Source of the DNA: Halobacterium sp. KA-4
Lineage (GTDB): Archaea; Halobacteriota; Halobacteria; Halobacteriales; Halobacteriaceae
DNA: 64,000 nt
Direction: 5' to 3'
Assembly (NCBI RefSeq): GCF_021028995.1
Contig: NZ_JAJJZG010000002.1
Span: 62,001-126,000, forward strand
Part shown: positions 15,980-47,918 of the stretch, piece by piece
Layout: the number at the start of each line of letters is the position of its first letter
How positions within the stretch are numbered: position 1 is the first letter of the stretch
The notes under the pieces: model-generated
What the model saw: the letters and a program-made list of their open reading frames with translations, nothing else
Told to the model about the DNA's origin: nothing
Databases searched by the model: none
Position numbers and translations under genes: made by a program

Positions 15980-17237
15980 TCAGCTGTCGGCGGTTGGCCG
16001 ATAGCCGTCACCGTTCAACATCCCACCATGTATACGCACGTCTACTGGTGCGTCTGCGCCCCCCGACGTGGGCGAGGAACGCAGGCTGTGCTGGCGCTTC
16101 CGCATATACCGTAACGCGACGTTTTTCGCGCCGTTGTAATCCGCGTTGATTTCGTACCCACACTTCAGACACTGGAACTGCTCGCCGTCCCGGTTCTCTT
16201 CGTGAGTAAACCCACAATCAGTCCGAGAACACCGCTGACTGGTGTAATCTGGTTCGACCTGCTCAACAGCCACCCCTCGGTCTGGCGCTTTGTATTCGAC
16301 GTATTCGACGAGACGGCGGAATGCCCAAATGTGATGCCAGTCAGCGTGAGGCAGTCGCTCTCGAATATCCGTCAACTCCCCGAACACGATCACATCGCAA
16401 TCGTGGTCAATCGCTTCGGCAACAAGCTCGTTGGCGACCGTGTGGAGTATACTGTTTGCGCCACGCTCGCTCTCGCTTTCCAAGCCGAAGCAAGGCATTA
16501 TGAGCGGCTTGTGTGCCACGCTGTTGCATTTCCGCCCGACGGTTCTCGAACTCGTGGATCCAGTGGTCGTACTCGTCACCACTCCAGAACGTCCCTGTGC
16601 TAGCGACGGCGAGACTGTTCACACCGAGATCGATCCCGAGGACGGTTTCGTGCCCGGTATCGTCCGAACCCTCGATCTCAACAGCCTCCCCATCTTCGTC
16701 TACCTTCCGCGTTTTGACGTGGAAATAAAAATCGTTGGTCGCTTGGTCGTACTGGAGTGTACTCGTCCGAAACTCGTACTCCTCAGACAAGACGTACTCT
16801 TCGTACGGCGTCGGACTATCCGCTGGCAGCTCGAAATCACACTCGATGCGTCCGTTCACCGTGGAGAGTGAGATTTTGTTCCGGTAGAACGTCGCACTGC
16901 GCTTGTCGTAGACCATACTCCAGGAGGTAAACTCTGGTTTGTTCGTCCGCTTGCCGTTTTTCCAGCGGTCAACACCGCTATCGACGGCGTGGACGGCACG
17001 CCGGATGGCTTCCTGGACGAGGTTTGCCGTCAGCTCAGTCTCCTCGCGGAGCCGGTCGTACAGCGCGTCTCTCGCTGTCACGTTCGAGGTGACGCAGTCT
17101 TCGTAGTGGGTGTTGTCCCAGCAGTAGTCACTGGCCTCGTTCGCGCAGTAGAGGGATTGCTCGGCGGTTTCGTGGAGGTCGTCGCGATACTCGTCAGGAA
17201 CGACGAGTTTGACCGGCGCGGTACGCCTGACCTCCAT
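15980..17237 (-). pseudogene. tnpB: TnpB RNA-guided nuclease, frameshifted
   Basis: Read from 17237, the first frame encodes about 260 residues of TnpB with the first RuvC Asp (Asp203 in [12 protein letters not shown]) and then loses register. The homologous continuation ([25 protein letters not shown], the zinc finger CSRTDCGF...[17 protein letters not shown]) is in another frame down to 15980. The minus strand reads CAG TAT A CTC CAC at about 16446-16454, so one extra A near 16448-16450 explains the shift. The second RuvC acidic motif reads [11 protein letters not shown] where relatives I recall have FED or FEE, so the catalytic Glu position also looks altered. The third Asp is intact. No standard start restores the frame. 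Confidence 0.85.
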
Positions 17238-21040: not shown

Positions 21041-21247
21041 ATGGCAACGAAGAACCCCAGCACCGACGCACACGAATCAGACGCCCACGAAACTGACCCC
21101 CACGAGTGCCCGTTCTGCGGGGAGTACGTCGCCTCGCCGGGGAAGGGATTCATGCTGCACGTCGAGGAGAACCCCGAGTGTGACGCGGACTTCGACGCGT
21201 GGCGCGACCGCGTCGCCAACGACGTCCCCGGTGGCTGGGCGGGGTAG
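21041..21247 (+). CDS. Small zinc-finger protein, DUF7501-like
   Basis: A 68-residue acidic protein. A His/Asp-rich N-terminus (HESDAHETDPHE) leads into a CCHC finger: Cys23 and Cys26 in CPFCGEYV, His40 in FMLHVEENPEC and Cys47. It resembles small haloarchaeal zinc-finger proteins that I recall as DUF7501. Function is unknown; nucleic-acid or protein contacts are possible. Transcription is probably leaderless from the TATA at 21011. Its stop is 3 bp from the stop of the convergent membrane gene. Confidence 0.75.
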   Translation: MATKNPSTDAHESDAHETDPHECPFCGEYVASPGKGFMLHVEENPECDADFDAWRDRVANDVPGGWAG

Positions 21248-21250
21248 AAC

Positions 21251-21694
21251 TTAGGCGGAGGGGTCGCCGACCACGTCGGACTGACGCGGGTCGGCGTCCT
21301 CGATGTGTTCCTCGACCTCTTCTTCGACACGTCGCTGTACGGTGTCGTCGACCTCCTCCTCGACGCGCTCCTGGACGCGGTCGTCGACGTGTTCCTCGAC
21401 GTGGTCTTCGACGTGCGTCTCCACTTCGTCGGCCACGGCACCCGACACCTGGTCGTCGACCTCCGCGGCGACCTTCGTCTCCGCGGCCTGTGCGACCTGC
21501 TCTTCGAGAATCTGCTCGTAGATGCTCATGTTCTCCCAGACGCGCAGGAAGTAGCCGAGCACGAGCCCGCCCTGGAGCGCGGCGACGCGGGCGTCCATCC
21601 CGAAGACGAGCAGGTAGCCGAAGCCCAGGCTGAACGCGACACCGTAGACGACGTCGATGTAGAACTGCGTCTGTCGTCCACTGAGCGGTGGCAT
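21251..21694 (-). CDS. Two-helix membrane protein with a 4-residue-period valine tail
   Basis: A 147-residue protein. Two membrane helices (about residues 10-32 and 37-52) are followed by a long charged helix (about 56-135). In that tail a Val, or a final Ile, sits at exactly every fourth residue from Val75 to Ile131: 15 in a row, with acidic/basic residues between (for example HVEDHVEEHVDDRVQERV). Val67 (in EEQVAQAAE) and Leu63 extend the register. I do not recognise the family. The period differs from the alternating 3-4 spacing of normal coiled coils. It may be a membrane-anchored oligomeric stalk or scaffold. The ATG at 21694 is preferred to the GTG immediately before it. Confidence 0.7.
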   Translation of the reverse strand: MPPLSGRQTQFYIDVVYGVAFSLGFGYLLVFGMDARVAALQGGLVLGYFLRVWENMSIYEQILEEQVAQAAETKVAAEVDDQVSGAVADEVETHVEDHVEEHVDDRVQERVEEEVDDTVQRRVEEEVEEHIEDADPRQSDVVGDPSA

Positions 21695-21749
21695 CACCTG
21701 TAGGTTCGGTCCGGCGCGTACAAAGGCCCTGTGCCCGGTTGAGGCGTCG

Positions 21750-22955
21750 TCAGCCGAAGAAGACCAGCTCGAACGCGAGGAACGACCCGACCGTGGCGAC
21801 GACGGGGACGAGGTTCTGCATCGCGACGACGCGGACGGTCGTCGACGGGTCGAACAATTCGGAGCTCTCGGGGAGGTCCTCGGGGGAGGGCTCGCCGATG
21901 TCGCGGGTCGTGTCCTCGCCGTCGAGCTCCGGGTCGCCGACGGTCGGCGCGTCCTCGTCGGTCGCGAGCGCGCCGACGGACATCCGGGGGGTGGCCTGGC
22001 CGCGGACGGCGTCCACGATTGCGAACGTCCGGGTCGCCTGCCCCCAGCCGAGGCCGACGATAGACATGGTGGCGATGACGACGAAACTCGCTGGGATGCC
22101 GGCAGCCGACAGTGCGACCACGATGGTGGAGCTGATGACGGCGACGACGATGGCCGCGGTCAGCGGGAGGTCGGTGATGTCGTTGCCGAGCGTCTCCATC
22201 GTGCGGCGCGCGATGGTGAACGCGCCGACCGCGACGGCCGCCGAGCCGACGAGGATGCCGACGTTCATCCCGAGTTCGCCGCTGCCAACGAGCGGTGCGA
22301 TGGCGTTGGCGACGTTACTCGTCCCCGAACTGAACGCCATCAGGCAGCCGATGGCGACGACGACGACCGTCCCGACGAACTCGCGGCGGGTCGTGTTCGG
22401 GCCGAGCACGGGCCGCGGGACCGCGCCGTCGCGCTCGAGAGCGAGCAGCGGGCCGTCGCTCTGGTCGATGGCGAACACGTTGTCGATGCGCGGGTAGAAG
22501 TACCGCCCCACCATTACCGACACCCAGAAGCCGATTGCGGGGGAGACGAGCCACCAGCTCGCGATTTCGCCGACCACCGCCCAATTCACGCTGTCGGACG
22601 CGAGCCCGAGCCCGACGATAGCGCCGACCGCGGTCATCGACGTCGACGCGGGCGCGCCCGAGAGGTTGCCGACGAGGAGCGCCCCGCCGACGAAGAACAG
22701 GACGGTGATGCTGACCGGGAGCGTGAACACGCCGGGGTCCGCGAGAAGGCCCTCGCCGAGCGTGTCCACGACGCGGCGGCCGAGCGTCCACGCGCCCACG
22801 AAGAAACACACCGACATGAGCGCGGCGGCGGTCACCTTCGTGATGGCGCCGGCACCGACTGCGGGCCCGAACGCCGGGCCGGTCGTCGCGCCGCCGATGT
22901 TGTACGCGACGAAACACGCGATGAGCACGCCGACGGCGAGCAGTGTCTCGGTCAC
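21750..22955 (-). CDS. Inorganic phosphate transporter, PiT family (first copy)
   Basis: A 401-residue membrane protein with about 10-11 helices and the two inverted PiT signature repeats: FVAYNIGGATTGPAFGPAVG near the N-terminus and FSSGTSNVANAIAPLVG in the second half. GAPASTSMTAVGAIVGLG also matches. PiT permeases import phosphate with Na+ or H+. The C-terminal hydrophilic loop is acidic (about residues 320-380). The GTG at 22955 is chosen because a strong TATA (GTTATAAT, minus strand) lies about 31 nt upstream; an in-frame GTG at 23000 would be upstream of that TATA. A paralogue lies near 46 kb. Confidence 0.88.
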   Translation of the reverse strand: MTETLLAVGVLIACFVAYNIGGATTGPAFGPAVGAGAITKVTAAALMSVCFFVGAWTLGRRVVDTLGEGLLADPGVFTLPVSITVLFFVGGALLVGNLSGAPASTSMTAVGAIVGLGLASDSVNWAVVGEIASWWLVSPAIGFWVSVMVGRYFYPRIDNVFAIDQSDGPLLALERDGAVPRPVLGPNTTRREFVGTVVVVAIGCLMAFSSGTSNVANAIAPLVGSGELGMNVGILVGSAAVAVGAFTIARRTMETLGNDITDLPLTAAIVVAVISSTIVVALSAAGIPASFVVIATMSIVGLGWGQATRTFAIVDAVRGQATPRMSVGALATDEDAPTVGDPELDGEDTTRDIGEPSPEDLPESSELFDPSTTVRVVAMQNLVPVVATVGSFLAFELVFFG

Positions 22956-22982
22956 AGTCGCCGGGACGGTAGGAACGAGTCG

Positions 22983-22990
22983 ATTATAAC
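22983..22990 (-). promoter_or_regulatory. TATA box of the first PiT permease gene
   Basis: On the minus strand it reads GTTATAAT, about 31 nt before the GTG at 22955. It decides the start codon, since the longer frame would begin upstream of this promoter. Confidence 0.55.
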
Positions 22991-23162
22991 GTCTTCTCAC
23001 TCGGTGTCCGAAAGCGGGAGTGGGGAGTGCCGGACGCGCGGGGGGAGAGTGGGGGAGAGTCGAACGCGCGTCCAGATGATGGGTCCCCCTCGTGCGTAAT
23101 AAAGATTCGTCAGACGCGACGCGGCACGAAAGGCTACGGGGCAGGGCTCCGTCGGGTCACAC

Positions 23163-45247: not shown

Positions 45248-46420
45248 TCAGGGCGTCCCCGCCACGGGCAGCGCGAGGAACGCCAGATACGAGAACAGGG
45301 TCGCGGCGCTCGGCCCGAGAATCCAGAAGGAGACGAACCGCGCGACGGTCGACGGGTCGAACAGCGCCGCCGCGTCCTGCAGGTCGTCGTCGCGTGCCCC
45401 GCCGATTTCGGCGACGCCCTCGTCGACTCCGGCGGCGACCGCGCTCACGGAGACGCCGCCCTCGACGTCGCCTCGCGCGAGTTCCGCCGCCGTCGCCGTC
45501 CGGGACGCGCGCCCCCAGCCGAGCCCGACGATGGTCATCACCGTCGAGAGCGCGAGACTGATGGGGATGCCGAGCCACGACGCGGCGGTCGTAATCGTCG
45601 CCGCAACCACCGTCACGACCATCGCGGCCAGCAGCGGAAGGTCCGTGAGTTCGCTCCCGACGGACGCCATCGTGCGGCGCGCGATGGTGAACGCGCCGAC
45701 GCCGATGGCCGCCGCCGCGAGCACGACCGCCGGCCCCGGGTCGAGGAGCCCGCCGCCGACCAGCGGCGCGACCGCGTTCGCGACGTTGCTCGCGCCCGCC
45801 GAGAACGACATGTAGCACGCGACGACGACGACGAGCGCGGTGCTGACGAACTCCCGAAGCGACGTCCCCGGACCGAGCGCCGGCCTGGGGACGAACGACG
45901 ACCAATCGAGCGTGACCAGCGGGCCATCGGACTGCTCGATTTCGACGACGCGCTGCAGGTGGACGTAGAGGTAGCGCCCGACGACCGCGCCACACCAGAA
46001 GCCGACGACGGGCGCGACCAGCCACCAGACGACGATTTCGCCGAGCACCGCCCAGTCGAGCGTGCCCGTCGCGAGCCCGAGGCCCGCGATAGCACCGACC
46101 GCCGTCATCGACGTCGAGATGGGGACGCCGTAGGCGTTCGCGACCACCATCCCGAGCCCGATGAACACGAGCACGACGATACTCGCTTCGACGGTGAACG
46201 CGCCGGGCGCGACGACCCCGCTGCCCAGCGTCTCGACGACGTTCCGGCCGACCGTCCAGCCGCCCAGCAGGACGAACACCGTCATCAGCGCCGCCGCGGT
46301 CGTCTTCTTCGTGACGCCCGCGCCGACCGACGGCCCCCACGCGACACCCGTCGACGACCCGCCGACGTTGAAGCCGACGAACGCCGCGGCGGCGACGGCG
46401 ACGACCAACAGGACCTCCAT
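45248..46420 (-). CDS. Inorganic phosphate transporter, PiT family (second copy)
   Basis: A 390-residue PiT permease, paralogous to the copy near 22 kb: FVGFNVGGSSTGVAWGPSVG and FSAGASNVANAVAPLVGGG are its signature repeats, with GVPISTSMTAVGAIAGLG and 10-11 helices. Compared with the first copy it has a shorter acidic hydrophilic loop before the last helix. The pair presumably differ in affinity or coupling ion. It starts at ATG 46420 and is divergent from serS. Confidence 0.88.
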   Translation of the reverse strand: MEVLLVVAVAAAAFVGFNVGGSSTGVAWGPSVGAGVTKKTTAAALMTVFVLLGGWTVGRNVVETLGSGVVAPGAFTVEASIVVLVFIGLGMVVANAYGVPISTSMTAVGAIAGLGLATGTLDWAVLGEIVVWWLVAPVVGFWCGAVVGRYLYVHLQRVVEIEQSDGPLVTLDWSSFVPRPALGPGTSLREFVSTALVVVVACYMSFSAGASNVANAVAPLVGGGLLDPGPAVVLAAAAIGVGAFTIARRTMASVGSELTDLPLLAAMVVTVVAATITTAASWLGIPISLALSTVMTIVGLGWGRASRTATAAELARGDVEGGVSVSAVAAGVDEGVAEIGGARDDDLQDAAALFDPSTVARFVSFWILGPSAATLFSYLAFLALPVAGTP

Positions 46421-46538
46421 GTGTCGCGGCGTACACGATTCCGCGTGGTATAGATTCTGGGTGTCGCCCGGTTCGGGTTCGTGACCGGTTGACGGGGATG
46501 CGATACGTTCTTGCCGGCGCCCCCGCAAACTCCGGCAA

Positions 46539-47918
46539 ATGCTGAGCAGACAGTACGTCCGCGAACACCCCGAGGAGGTCCGCGACGCCCTGCGGAAGAA
46601 GGGCGTGGACGCGGACCTCGACCGAATCCTGGAAGTCGACGAGGAGTGGCGTGACCTCAAGGCCCGCGGCGACGAACTCCGCCACGAGCGCAACGAGGTC
46701 TCCTCGAAAATCGGCGAGCTCAAGCAGGAAGGCAAGGAGGAGAAAGCCCAGGAAGCCATCGAGCGCTCGCAGGAACTCAAGGAGGAGCTCGAGGAAATCG
46801 AAGCGCGAGCGGACGAACTCGAAACCGAACTGGAGCGCAAACTTCTCACGCTCCCGATGGTCCCCCACGAGGAGGTGCCGGTCGGCGAGGACGAGTCCGA
46901 CAACGTCGAGCGCCGTCGCGAGGGCTTCGACGACCTGCGCGACCTCCCCGACGAGGTGACGCCGCACTACGACCTCGGCGAGGAACTGGACATCCTGGAC
47001 TTCGAGCGCGGCGCGAAGGTGTCGGGCGGCGGCTTCTACTTCGCGAAGGGCGCGGGCGCCCGCCTCGAGCACGCGCTCGTCCAATTCATGCTCGACGTCC
47101 ACCGCGAGCAGGGCTACGAGGACGTCTTCCCGCCGATTCCCGTGAATTCGAAGTCGATGGAGGGGACCGGACAGTTCCCGAAGTTCGTCGAGGACGCCTA
47201 CCGCATCGGCGACGTCAACGACGCCGACTACGACGAGGACGACCTCTGGCTGCTCCCCACGGCGGAGGTCCCGGTGACGAACATGTACCGCGACGAGATT
47301 CTGCTCAGCGACGACCTCCCCCTGAAGCACCAGGCGTACTCGCCGAATTTCCGGCGGGAGGCCGGCGAGCACGGCACCGAGACCCGCGGCATCGTGCGCG
47401 TCCACCAATTCAACAAGGTGGAGATGGTGAATTTCGTCGAACCCGAGGAGAGTTACGAGCGCTTCGACGGCCTCGTCGACGAAGCCGAGTCGGTGCTGCG
47501 CCGCCTCGGCCTCCCCTACCGGATTCTGGAGATGTGCACGGGCGACCTCGGGTTCACGCAGGCGAAGAAGTACGACATCGAGGTGTGGGCGCCCGGCGAC
47601 GACATGCCCGAGGGCCCCGAGGAAGGCGGGCGCTGGCTCGAAGTCTCCAGCGTCTCGAACTTCGAGGACTTCCAGGCGCGGCGCGCGGGCATCCAGTACC
47701 GCCCCGAGCGCCACGAGAGCGCGGAGTACCTCCACACACTGAACGGTTCGGGGCTGGCCGTTCCACGCGTGCTCGTCGCCATCCTCGAGTACTACCAGAA
47801 CGACGACGGCACCGTCGACGTGCCCGAGGCGCTCCAGCCGTACATGAACGGCCAGGAAGTCGTCGAGGGCTCGGCGAAAGTCGGCGAGTCCGCGCTCGGC
47901 GCGGGCGAACGCGAGTAG
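46539..47918 (+). CDS. serS: Seryl-tRNA synthetase, class II
   Basis: A 459-residue enzyme of the standard (bacterial-type) form. The N-terminal coiled-coil arm is residues about 30-105 (EIEARADELETELERKL), which binds the long variable arm of tRNA-Ser. Class II motifs are seen: motif 2 as FRREAGEHGTETRGIVRVHQ, then VSSVSNFEDFQARR, and motif 3 as LNGSGLAVPRVLVAILE. It is monocistronic, divergent from the PiT permease. Confidence 0.96.
   Translation: MLSRQYVREHPEEVRDALRKKGVDADLDRILEVDEEWRDLKARGDELRHERNEVSSKIGELKQEGKEEKAQEAIERSQELKEELEEIEARADELETELERKLLTLPMVPHEEVPVGEDESDNVERRREGFDDLRDLPDEVTPHYDLGEELDILDFERGAKVSGGGFYFAKGAGARLEHALVQFMLDVHREQGYEDVFPPIPVNSKSMEGTGQFPKFVEDAYRIGDVNDADYDEDDLWLLPTAEVPVTNMYRDEILLSDDLPLKHQAYSPNFRREAGEHGTETRGIVRVHQFNKVEMVNFVEPEESYERFDGLVDEAESVLRRLGLPYRILEMCTGDLGFTQAKKYDIEVWAPGDDMPEGPEEGGRWLEVSSVSNFEDFQARRAGIQYRPERHESAEYLHTLNGSGLAVPRVLVAILEYYQNDDGTVDVPEALQPYMNGQEVVEGSAKVGESALGAGERE

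Follow-up and report, generated by a model that had tools for sequence, protein, structure and literature searches.

A haloarchaeal membrane protein family with a four-residue hydrophobic repeat and its linkage to PiT transporters

Analysis of a 64,000-nucleotide stretch of DNA from Halobacterium sp. KA-4 (referred to as the window) revealed a gene for a small membrane protein whose tail carries a valine at every fourth residue. This tetrad pattern is real, conserved, and selected, and the family that displays it has no name. The linkage of the family to PiT (PHO4) transporters is well supported by comparative genomics. Judging from these comparisons, we lean towards the view that the protein is a dedicated accessory subunit of one haloarchaeal PiT clade, whose cytoplasmic helical tail would cluster or regulate the transporter.

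The tetrad-tail gene and its product

The gene, the segments of its product, and the neighboring transporter gene are located in the window as follows:

21251..21694, minus strand: gene of the tetrad-tail membrane protein (ORF of 147 aa, with homologues in other genomes)
21605..21679, minus strand: helix 1 of the membrane hairpin, residues 6-30 (AlphaFold2 helix; conserved in family alignments A1 and A2)
21524..21592, minus strand: membrane helix 2, about residues 35-57 (AlphaFold2 helix from residue 35; the membrane boundary is an estimate)
21302..21472, minus strand: tetrad array, residues 75-131, V-x-x-x fourteen times, then I (sequence pattern; purifying selection at the V position)
21254..21301, minus strand: C-terminal end, residues 132-147 (in AlphaFold2 a low-confidence coil, non-helical from residue 133, pLDDT ~50)
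21750..23000, minus strand: PHO4/PiT-family transporter of 416 aa (PF01384, E 2.4e-40), 52 bp upstream of the tetrad gene

An alternative GTG start is found at 21697, one codon upstream of the start of the 147-aa ORF. The opposite strand was considered as coding, as it too has an open frame across the array, yet the minus strand is the correct one, being fixed by homologues at 30% identity and by the selection pattern. A small DUF7501 zinc-finger-like protein is encoded convergently with the tetrad gene (21041-21247, plus strand). The window also holds a gene for a TnpB-like transposon protein (16407-17237, minus strand; motif recognized by eye), the C-terminal part of which looks truncated or frameshifted.

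A first-pass annotation of the sequence had described a tail with valine at every fourth residue behind two N-terminal membrane helices. Both descriptions held. V75, V79, and so on to V127, followed by I131, form 15 unbroken tetrads, and the register does extend back, as had been proposed, to V67 and L63, with A71 standing between V67 and V75. The sole off-register hydrophobic residue (V, I, L, M, or F) within residues 59-132 is I62. When this tail segment was shuffled 200,000 times, the longest run of V or I at spacing 4 was 9, compared with the observed 15. At the DNA level, ten GTN codons spaced by 12 nt occurred at two loci of the 3.34 Mb genome, i.e. in the window gene and in its C18 paralogue (L002), which encodes 285 aa with 38 unbroken tetrads and immediately adjoins a PiT gene. 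A control pattern (the ten-fold GTN-N9 read backwards) had no match in the 3.34 Mb genome.

AlphaFold2 supports the two membrane helices by predicting an N-terminal helical hairpin (residues 6-30 and from 35 onward; pLDDT ~84), from which helix 2 continues unbroken to residue 132, with a pLDDT of ~50-65 in the tail. Membrane helix 2 is followed by the juxtamembrane motif RVWENMSIYE; W53, E54, M56, I58, Y59, and E60 were invariant in an alignment of 16 homologues of the same subfamily (type a, see below). Both termini are probably cytoplasmic because R, K, or H residues precede helix 1 and follow helix 2 of the hairpin (assessed by eye). The window tail has a net charge of -22, and tails of the family carry about -0.26 to -0.31 per residue.

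Family and distribution

The first-pass annotation had named no family with this strict tetrad period, and indeed the window protein scored below the cut-off of every Pfam and NCBIfam model; Pfam, NCBIfam, and PDB sequence searches returned no relative of it. Long tetrad tails score by composition against the Pfam models DUF445 (PF04286) and CdrL_M, and one member of 397 aa exceeds both cut-offs. For DUF445, only this member passes (41.1 bits, over its repeat tail), while shorter members miss and the window protein reaches 14.8 bits against a gathering cut-off of 33.8. For CdrL_M, no single stretch of the 397-aa member passes alone, and the window protein is below the cut-off. Together with hits to GvpQ and others, these long-tail matches were rejected as compositional.

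The family was defined by its two-helix membrane anchor and searched with the anchor alignment A1. Anchor relatives were detected in 278 of 391 haloarchaeal genomes, covering 71 of 86 genera. In a phylum-wide sample, all 41 positive genomes were haloarchaea, and none of the ~240 non-haloarchaeal genomes of the phylum had a family member. Named genomes with members belong to Halobacterium, Halobellus, Halorubrum, Halorussus, and Natrinema, as well as to three Salinibacteraceae (Bacteria), namely Salinibacter altiplanensis, Salinivenus iranica, and S. lutea; these bacteria must have gained the gene by lateral transfer. In these searches, only halophiles carried the family: archaea, plus a bacterium with the salt-in strategy. 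Two subfamilies were distinguished: (i) type a, as in the window, with GRQTQF...RVWENMSIYE; and (ii) type b, with MNPxRVD...WKMARFDP. In Salinivenus/Salinibacter, a type-a gene is paired with a PiT gene (L068, L069, L070), and this pair apparently came jointly from haloarchaea by lateral transfer.

Members are labeled 'hypothetical protein' in public records. A phage or mobile origin of the family was considered and set aside: a phage search gave no match, and type-b members were found in eight plasmid records. One short ORF (L031:1495-1659, genome G020) encodes a tail of tetrads resembling the L012 tail, lacks a membrane anchor, and is probably a remnant.

Period, length, and selection

Period statistics were pooled over 93 family members. 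The pooled hydrophobic spectrum had 4.0 as its only peak (power 26.7, compared with 1.4 at 3.75 and 0.6 at 3.5). Of about 3000 spacings between successive hydrophobic residues, 2627 were 4, 172 were 3, and 25 were 2. The mean spacing per protein, taken over the 3s and 4s, had a median of 3.96 in type a and 3.94 in type b, and was exactly 4.0 in 24 of 80 proteins. Protein length ranged from 115 to 397 aa and the longest unbroken tetrad run from 3 to 81. The first-pass annotation had suggested checking whether the period is kept while the repeat number varies, and this is what the 93 homologues do; rather than cleanly lacking the period, they keep it at four. The register starts at residue 64 in most type-b and at 75 or 79 in many type-a proteins, so that the tetrad tail begins at a set distance from the membrane and differs in length at its free end. 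The longest member (L111:5772-6965; 397 aa, 81 unbroken tetrads) contains tandem DNA repeats of 24 and 84 nt. The tail of the H. bonnevillei member counts 33 tetrads.

Pairwise, non-independent counts from four close Halobacterium orthologues gave 28 synonymous vs 4 non-synonymous differences at the V position. The corresponding values from the same pairwise, non-independent counts were 20/14, 24/18, and 15/28 at the other three tetrad positions, the last being the fourth position. By these counts, the tetrad V position is under purifying selection. In Salinivenus tails, A, L, I, and M stand in for many of the valines, and the spacing of four is retained. The second tetrad position admits G and P, and the window array comprises 14 distinct 12-nt units among 15. 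The synonymous excess at the V position and the replacements in Salinivenus indicate that selection targets a hydrophobic residue at every fourth position, not the DNA repeat.

Linkage to PiT transporters

The tetrad gene and the PiT gene at 21750..23000 are probably co-transcribed. For the product of the latter, the nearest NCBIfam model is a sulfate permease, far under its cut-off, and phosphate is the putative substrate. The first-pass annotation had missed this linkage, the chief pointer to what the protein does. The window contains a further PHO4/PiT gene (45248-46750, minus strand), which is of the full-length type, is ~52% identical to the first, and has no tetrad neighbor.

A PiT homologue was located at most 1.5 kb away at 23 of 30 family loci; among another 20 loci, drawn from across genera, 15 had one nearby. 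A survey of 30 genomes (24 genera) placed 27 of 39 family genes no more than 2 kb from a PHO4 gene, as against a chance expectation of ~0.7% each, derived from 4.7 PHO4 genes per genome. For type a, the PiT gene is upstream on the same strand; for type b of Halobacterium, it lies some tens of bases downstream; and at many other loci it is divergent. Of 47 PiTs matching at most the first 340 profile positions, 25 had a partner, compared with 5 of 95 full-length PiTs. The same arrangement is seen in public plasmid records, where a 'hypothetical protein' adjoins an 'inorganic phosphate transporter'. At four loci (L084, L086, L090, and L106), a PiT gene stands on either side of the type-b gene, the upstream one divergent and the downstream one convergent at a distance of ~500-600 bp.

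About 30% of members are without a nearby PiT gene. Two of these adjoin genes for TrkA potassium uptake (L113:4981-8617 and L117:5127-6992; one also a TrkH gene), and others adjoin Usp or SecY genes. Such neighbors rule out a strict fixed partnership with PiT, so that some members may have a different partner. The two Trk-linked members give a hint that the module may serve further ion transporters.

The association extends to the presence of a particular PiT clade. With the window's own family left out of the comparison, a PiT sharing at least 63% identity with that of the window was present in 21 of 23 carriers and in 0 of 14 non-carriers (Fisher 2e-8; Mann-Whitney on best identity 2e-6), where the 63% threshold was chosen post hoc and the genomes are related, not phylogenetically independent. 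This clade was also present in six of the seven carriers whose family gene adjoins no PiT. In the PiT tree, window-like type-a PiTs group with type-b PiTs (support 100/100), and other type-a PiTs branch outside even the second, unpaired PiT of the window; the anchors of both type-a groups join. As PiT and anchor trees disagree, the gene pairs were re-formed during evolution.

At the sequence level, family gene and PiT decay together in two genomes. In G013, a TAG codon interrupts the type-a reading frame, and a frameshift disrupts the PiT gene beside it. In G011, the PiT is missing between the aldo/keto-reductase and dihydrodipicolinate-synthase-like genes that also flank the window pair, and the tail is reduced. 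Caution is advised, as a PiT beside an intact family gene (L076) also appears frameshifted.

Tail shape and coiled-coil limits

Coiled coils are expected to access a range of ~3.3-3.9 residues per turn, with an upper limit near 3.9 and 4.0 outside the range; YadA, with 3.8, is the most extreme example named (Hartmann et al. 2016, PMC4786415). Apart from that study, the literature searches made here yielded nothing directly relevant to four-residue helical periods. Since the pooled family peak at 4.0 falls outside the published range, an ordinary coiled coil does not explain the tails. They resemble right-handed coiled coils (hendecad, 11/3; pentadecad, 15/4; YadA stalk, 19/5), which also have periods above 3.63 and include membrane-anchored stalks, but those periods stop at ~3.8 (YadA), whereas the family has values of 3.94-4.0 and as many as 81 tetrads without a break.

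In a Crick-type calculation with approximate geometry, a 4.0 dimer had a pitch of 51 Å, a pitch angle of 31 degrees, and a curvature radius of 18 Å, compared with a curvature radius of 113 Å for a heptad dimer. This geometry and the published limit make a simple continuous right-handed superhelix unlikely. Of the rod with a right-handed superhelix envisaged in the first-pass annotation, the strict four-residue period was borne out and the simple continuous rod was not. A single ordinary helix had been named there as the contrary outcome; the monomer model is one long helix, but of low confidence, and hence not a clean case of it. In the AlphaFold model of a longer homologue, helices are interrupted at prolines. 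A Foldseek fold search against the PDB gave no match (best E 0.97). An ER/K-type single alpha-helix was set aside, since residues i and i+4 are mostly of the same type and salt-bridge pairing would not be favored. Either the helix is locally underwound, or the valines meet different neighbors along the tail, or the tail adopts another fold.

Proposed function and alternatives

In the mechanism that we propose, the two-helix hairpin would anchor the protein in the membrane beside PiT, presumably in physical contact with it. Membrane helix 2 would extend into the acidic cytoplasmic tail, and the tails of several copies may associate via their valine positions. Because a period of 4.0 winds the valine stripe round the helix about every nine tetrads, each tail would be expected either to be locally underwound or to touch several neighbors in turn within a bundle or network; an assembly other than the classic two- to four-stranded rod would result. 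The associated tails might cluster or stabilize PiT units, or gate or regulate uptake, as PitR does for PitA.

In bacteria, small accessory proteins encoded next to PitA have been described, namely PitR and the SCO1846 protein (PMC13170248). Like the tetrad gene, the PitR gene is a non-transporter gene that adjoins a PiT gene and is tied to its cognate transporter, and the same role is proposed here; both adjacency (27/39 within 2 kb) and co-occurrence (21/23 vs 0/14) were found for the tetrad family. In contrast to PitR, which is PhoU-related and for which neither anchor nor tetrad tail is described, the window protein is membrane-anchored and tetrad-tailed, and it has no Pfam or NCBIfam match to PhoU or a related domain. 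SCO1846, compared with the window protein by description only, is likewise a small uncharacterized membrane protein beside a pitA gene (actinobacterial) and without PhoU similarity; it is one third the size of PhoU, and no tetrad tail is reported for it.

A membrane-anchored rod or spacer, formed as a homo-oligomeric right-handed superhelix and found near PiT merely through shared regulation with no joint machine, appears rather unlikely. It would agree with the predicted long helix, with selection at the V position, and with a register that begins at a constant distance from the membrane while length varies distally. It conflicts with the limit of ~3.9 residues per turn, 4.0 being named as inaccessible (PMC4786415), and with the computed curvature radius of at most 18 Å for a 4.0 coil, and it leaves the co-occurrence with one PiT clade unexplained where the genes stand apart.

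We regard it as unlikely that the protein is a general partner of ion transporters (PiT, Trk), in which the acidic tail would form a brush at the cytoplasmic mouth, binding ions or acting electrostatically, and the valines would serve only solubility and helicity. PiT proteins elsewhere import metal-phosphate complexes, which counts in favor of such a brush, as do the tail charge and the two loci with TrkA/TrkH genes. Haloarchaeal proteins are, however, acidic in any case, and a brush would have no need for purifying selection at the valine position.

It is very unlikely that the tail is non-alpha, i.e. a beta-type multi-chain fiber or a segment disordered until assembled, even though V and T are beta-branched, G and P are allowed at the second tetrad position, and AlphaFold confidence in the tail is low. 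A PDB profile search gave as its best match the pentameric Orsay virus delta fiber (5w82, E 0.013), which is likewise periodic and V/E-rich and whose shaft folds as beta-bracelets (PMC7565637), but this match is weak and compositional. Unlike the tetrad sequence, the delta fiber follows an eight-residue strand-loop pattern, and the beta-bracelet consensus (V/L-x-V-x-V strands, three-residue loops, period 8) is absent from the tails, in which spacing 2 is rare (25 vs 2627). A very high content of E, K, Q, R, and A and the helix in both AlphaFold models also speak against a beta fiber or disorder.

Finally, a functionless by-product of 12-nt slippage in GC-rich DNA, which would preserve the register automatically and could call on the 24- and 84-nt tandem repeats of the longest member, was rejected as highly improbable, given the synonymous changes at V codons, the residue replacements in Salinivenus, the diversity of the 12-nt units in the window array, the restriction of the pattern to the family within the genome, and the PiT link, which it leaves unexplained.

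Significance

Beyond an accessory subunit of PiT in general terms, a more far-reaching and doubtful possibility is that the tails form an ordered alpha-type helix assembly with a true 4.0 repeat. This would be a packing class beyond the known coiled-coil range, possibly stable only in multimolar KCl, and could provide a length-tunable PiT scaffold or regulator across haloarchaea and, laterally, in Salinibacter. Coiled-coil theory allows no sustained period of 4.0 residues per turn; nevertheless, a family present in ~70% of the searched haloarchaeal genomes keeps this value over up to 81 tetrads. As a selected tetrad family, it offers a ready natural test of the coiled-coil limit.

To our knowledge, haloarchaeal PiT transporters have no known regulator. 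The family, annotated as hypothetical and going with one PiT clade, is a candidate for this role, which would be testable in a tractable haloarchaeon.
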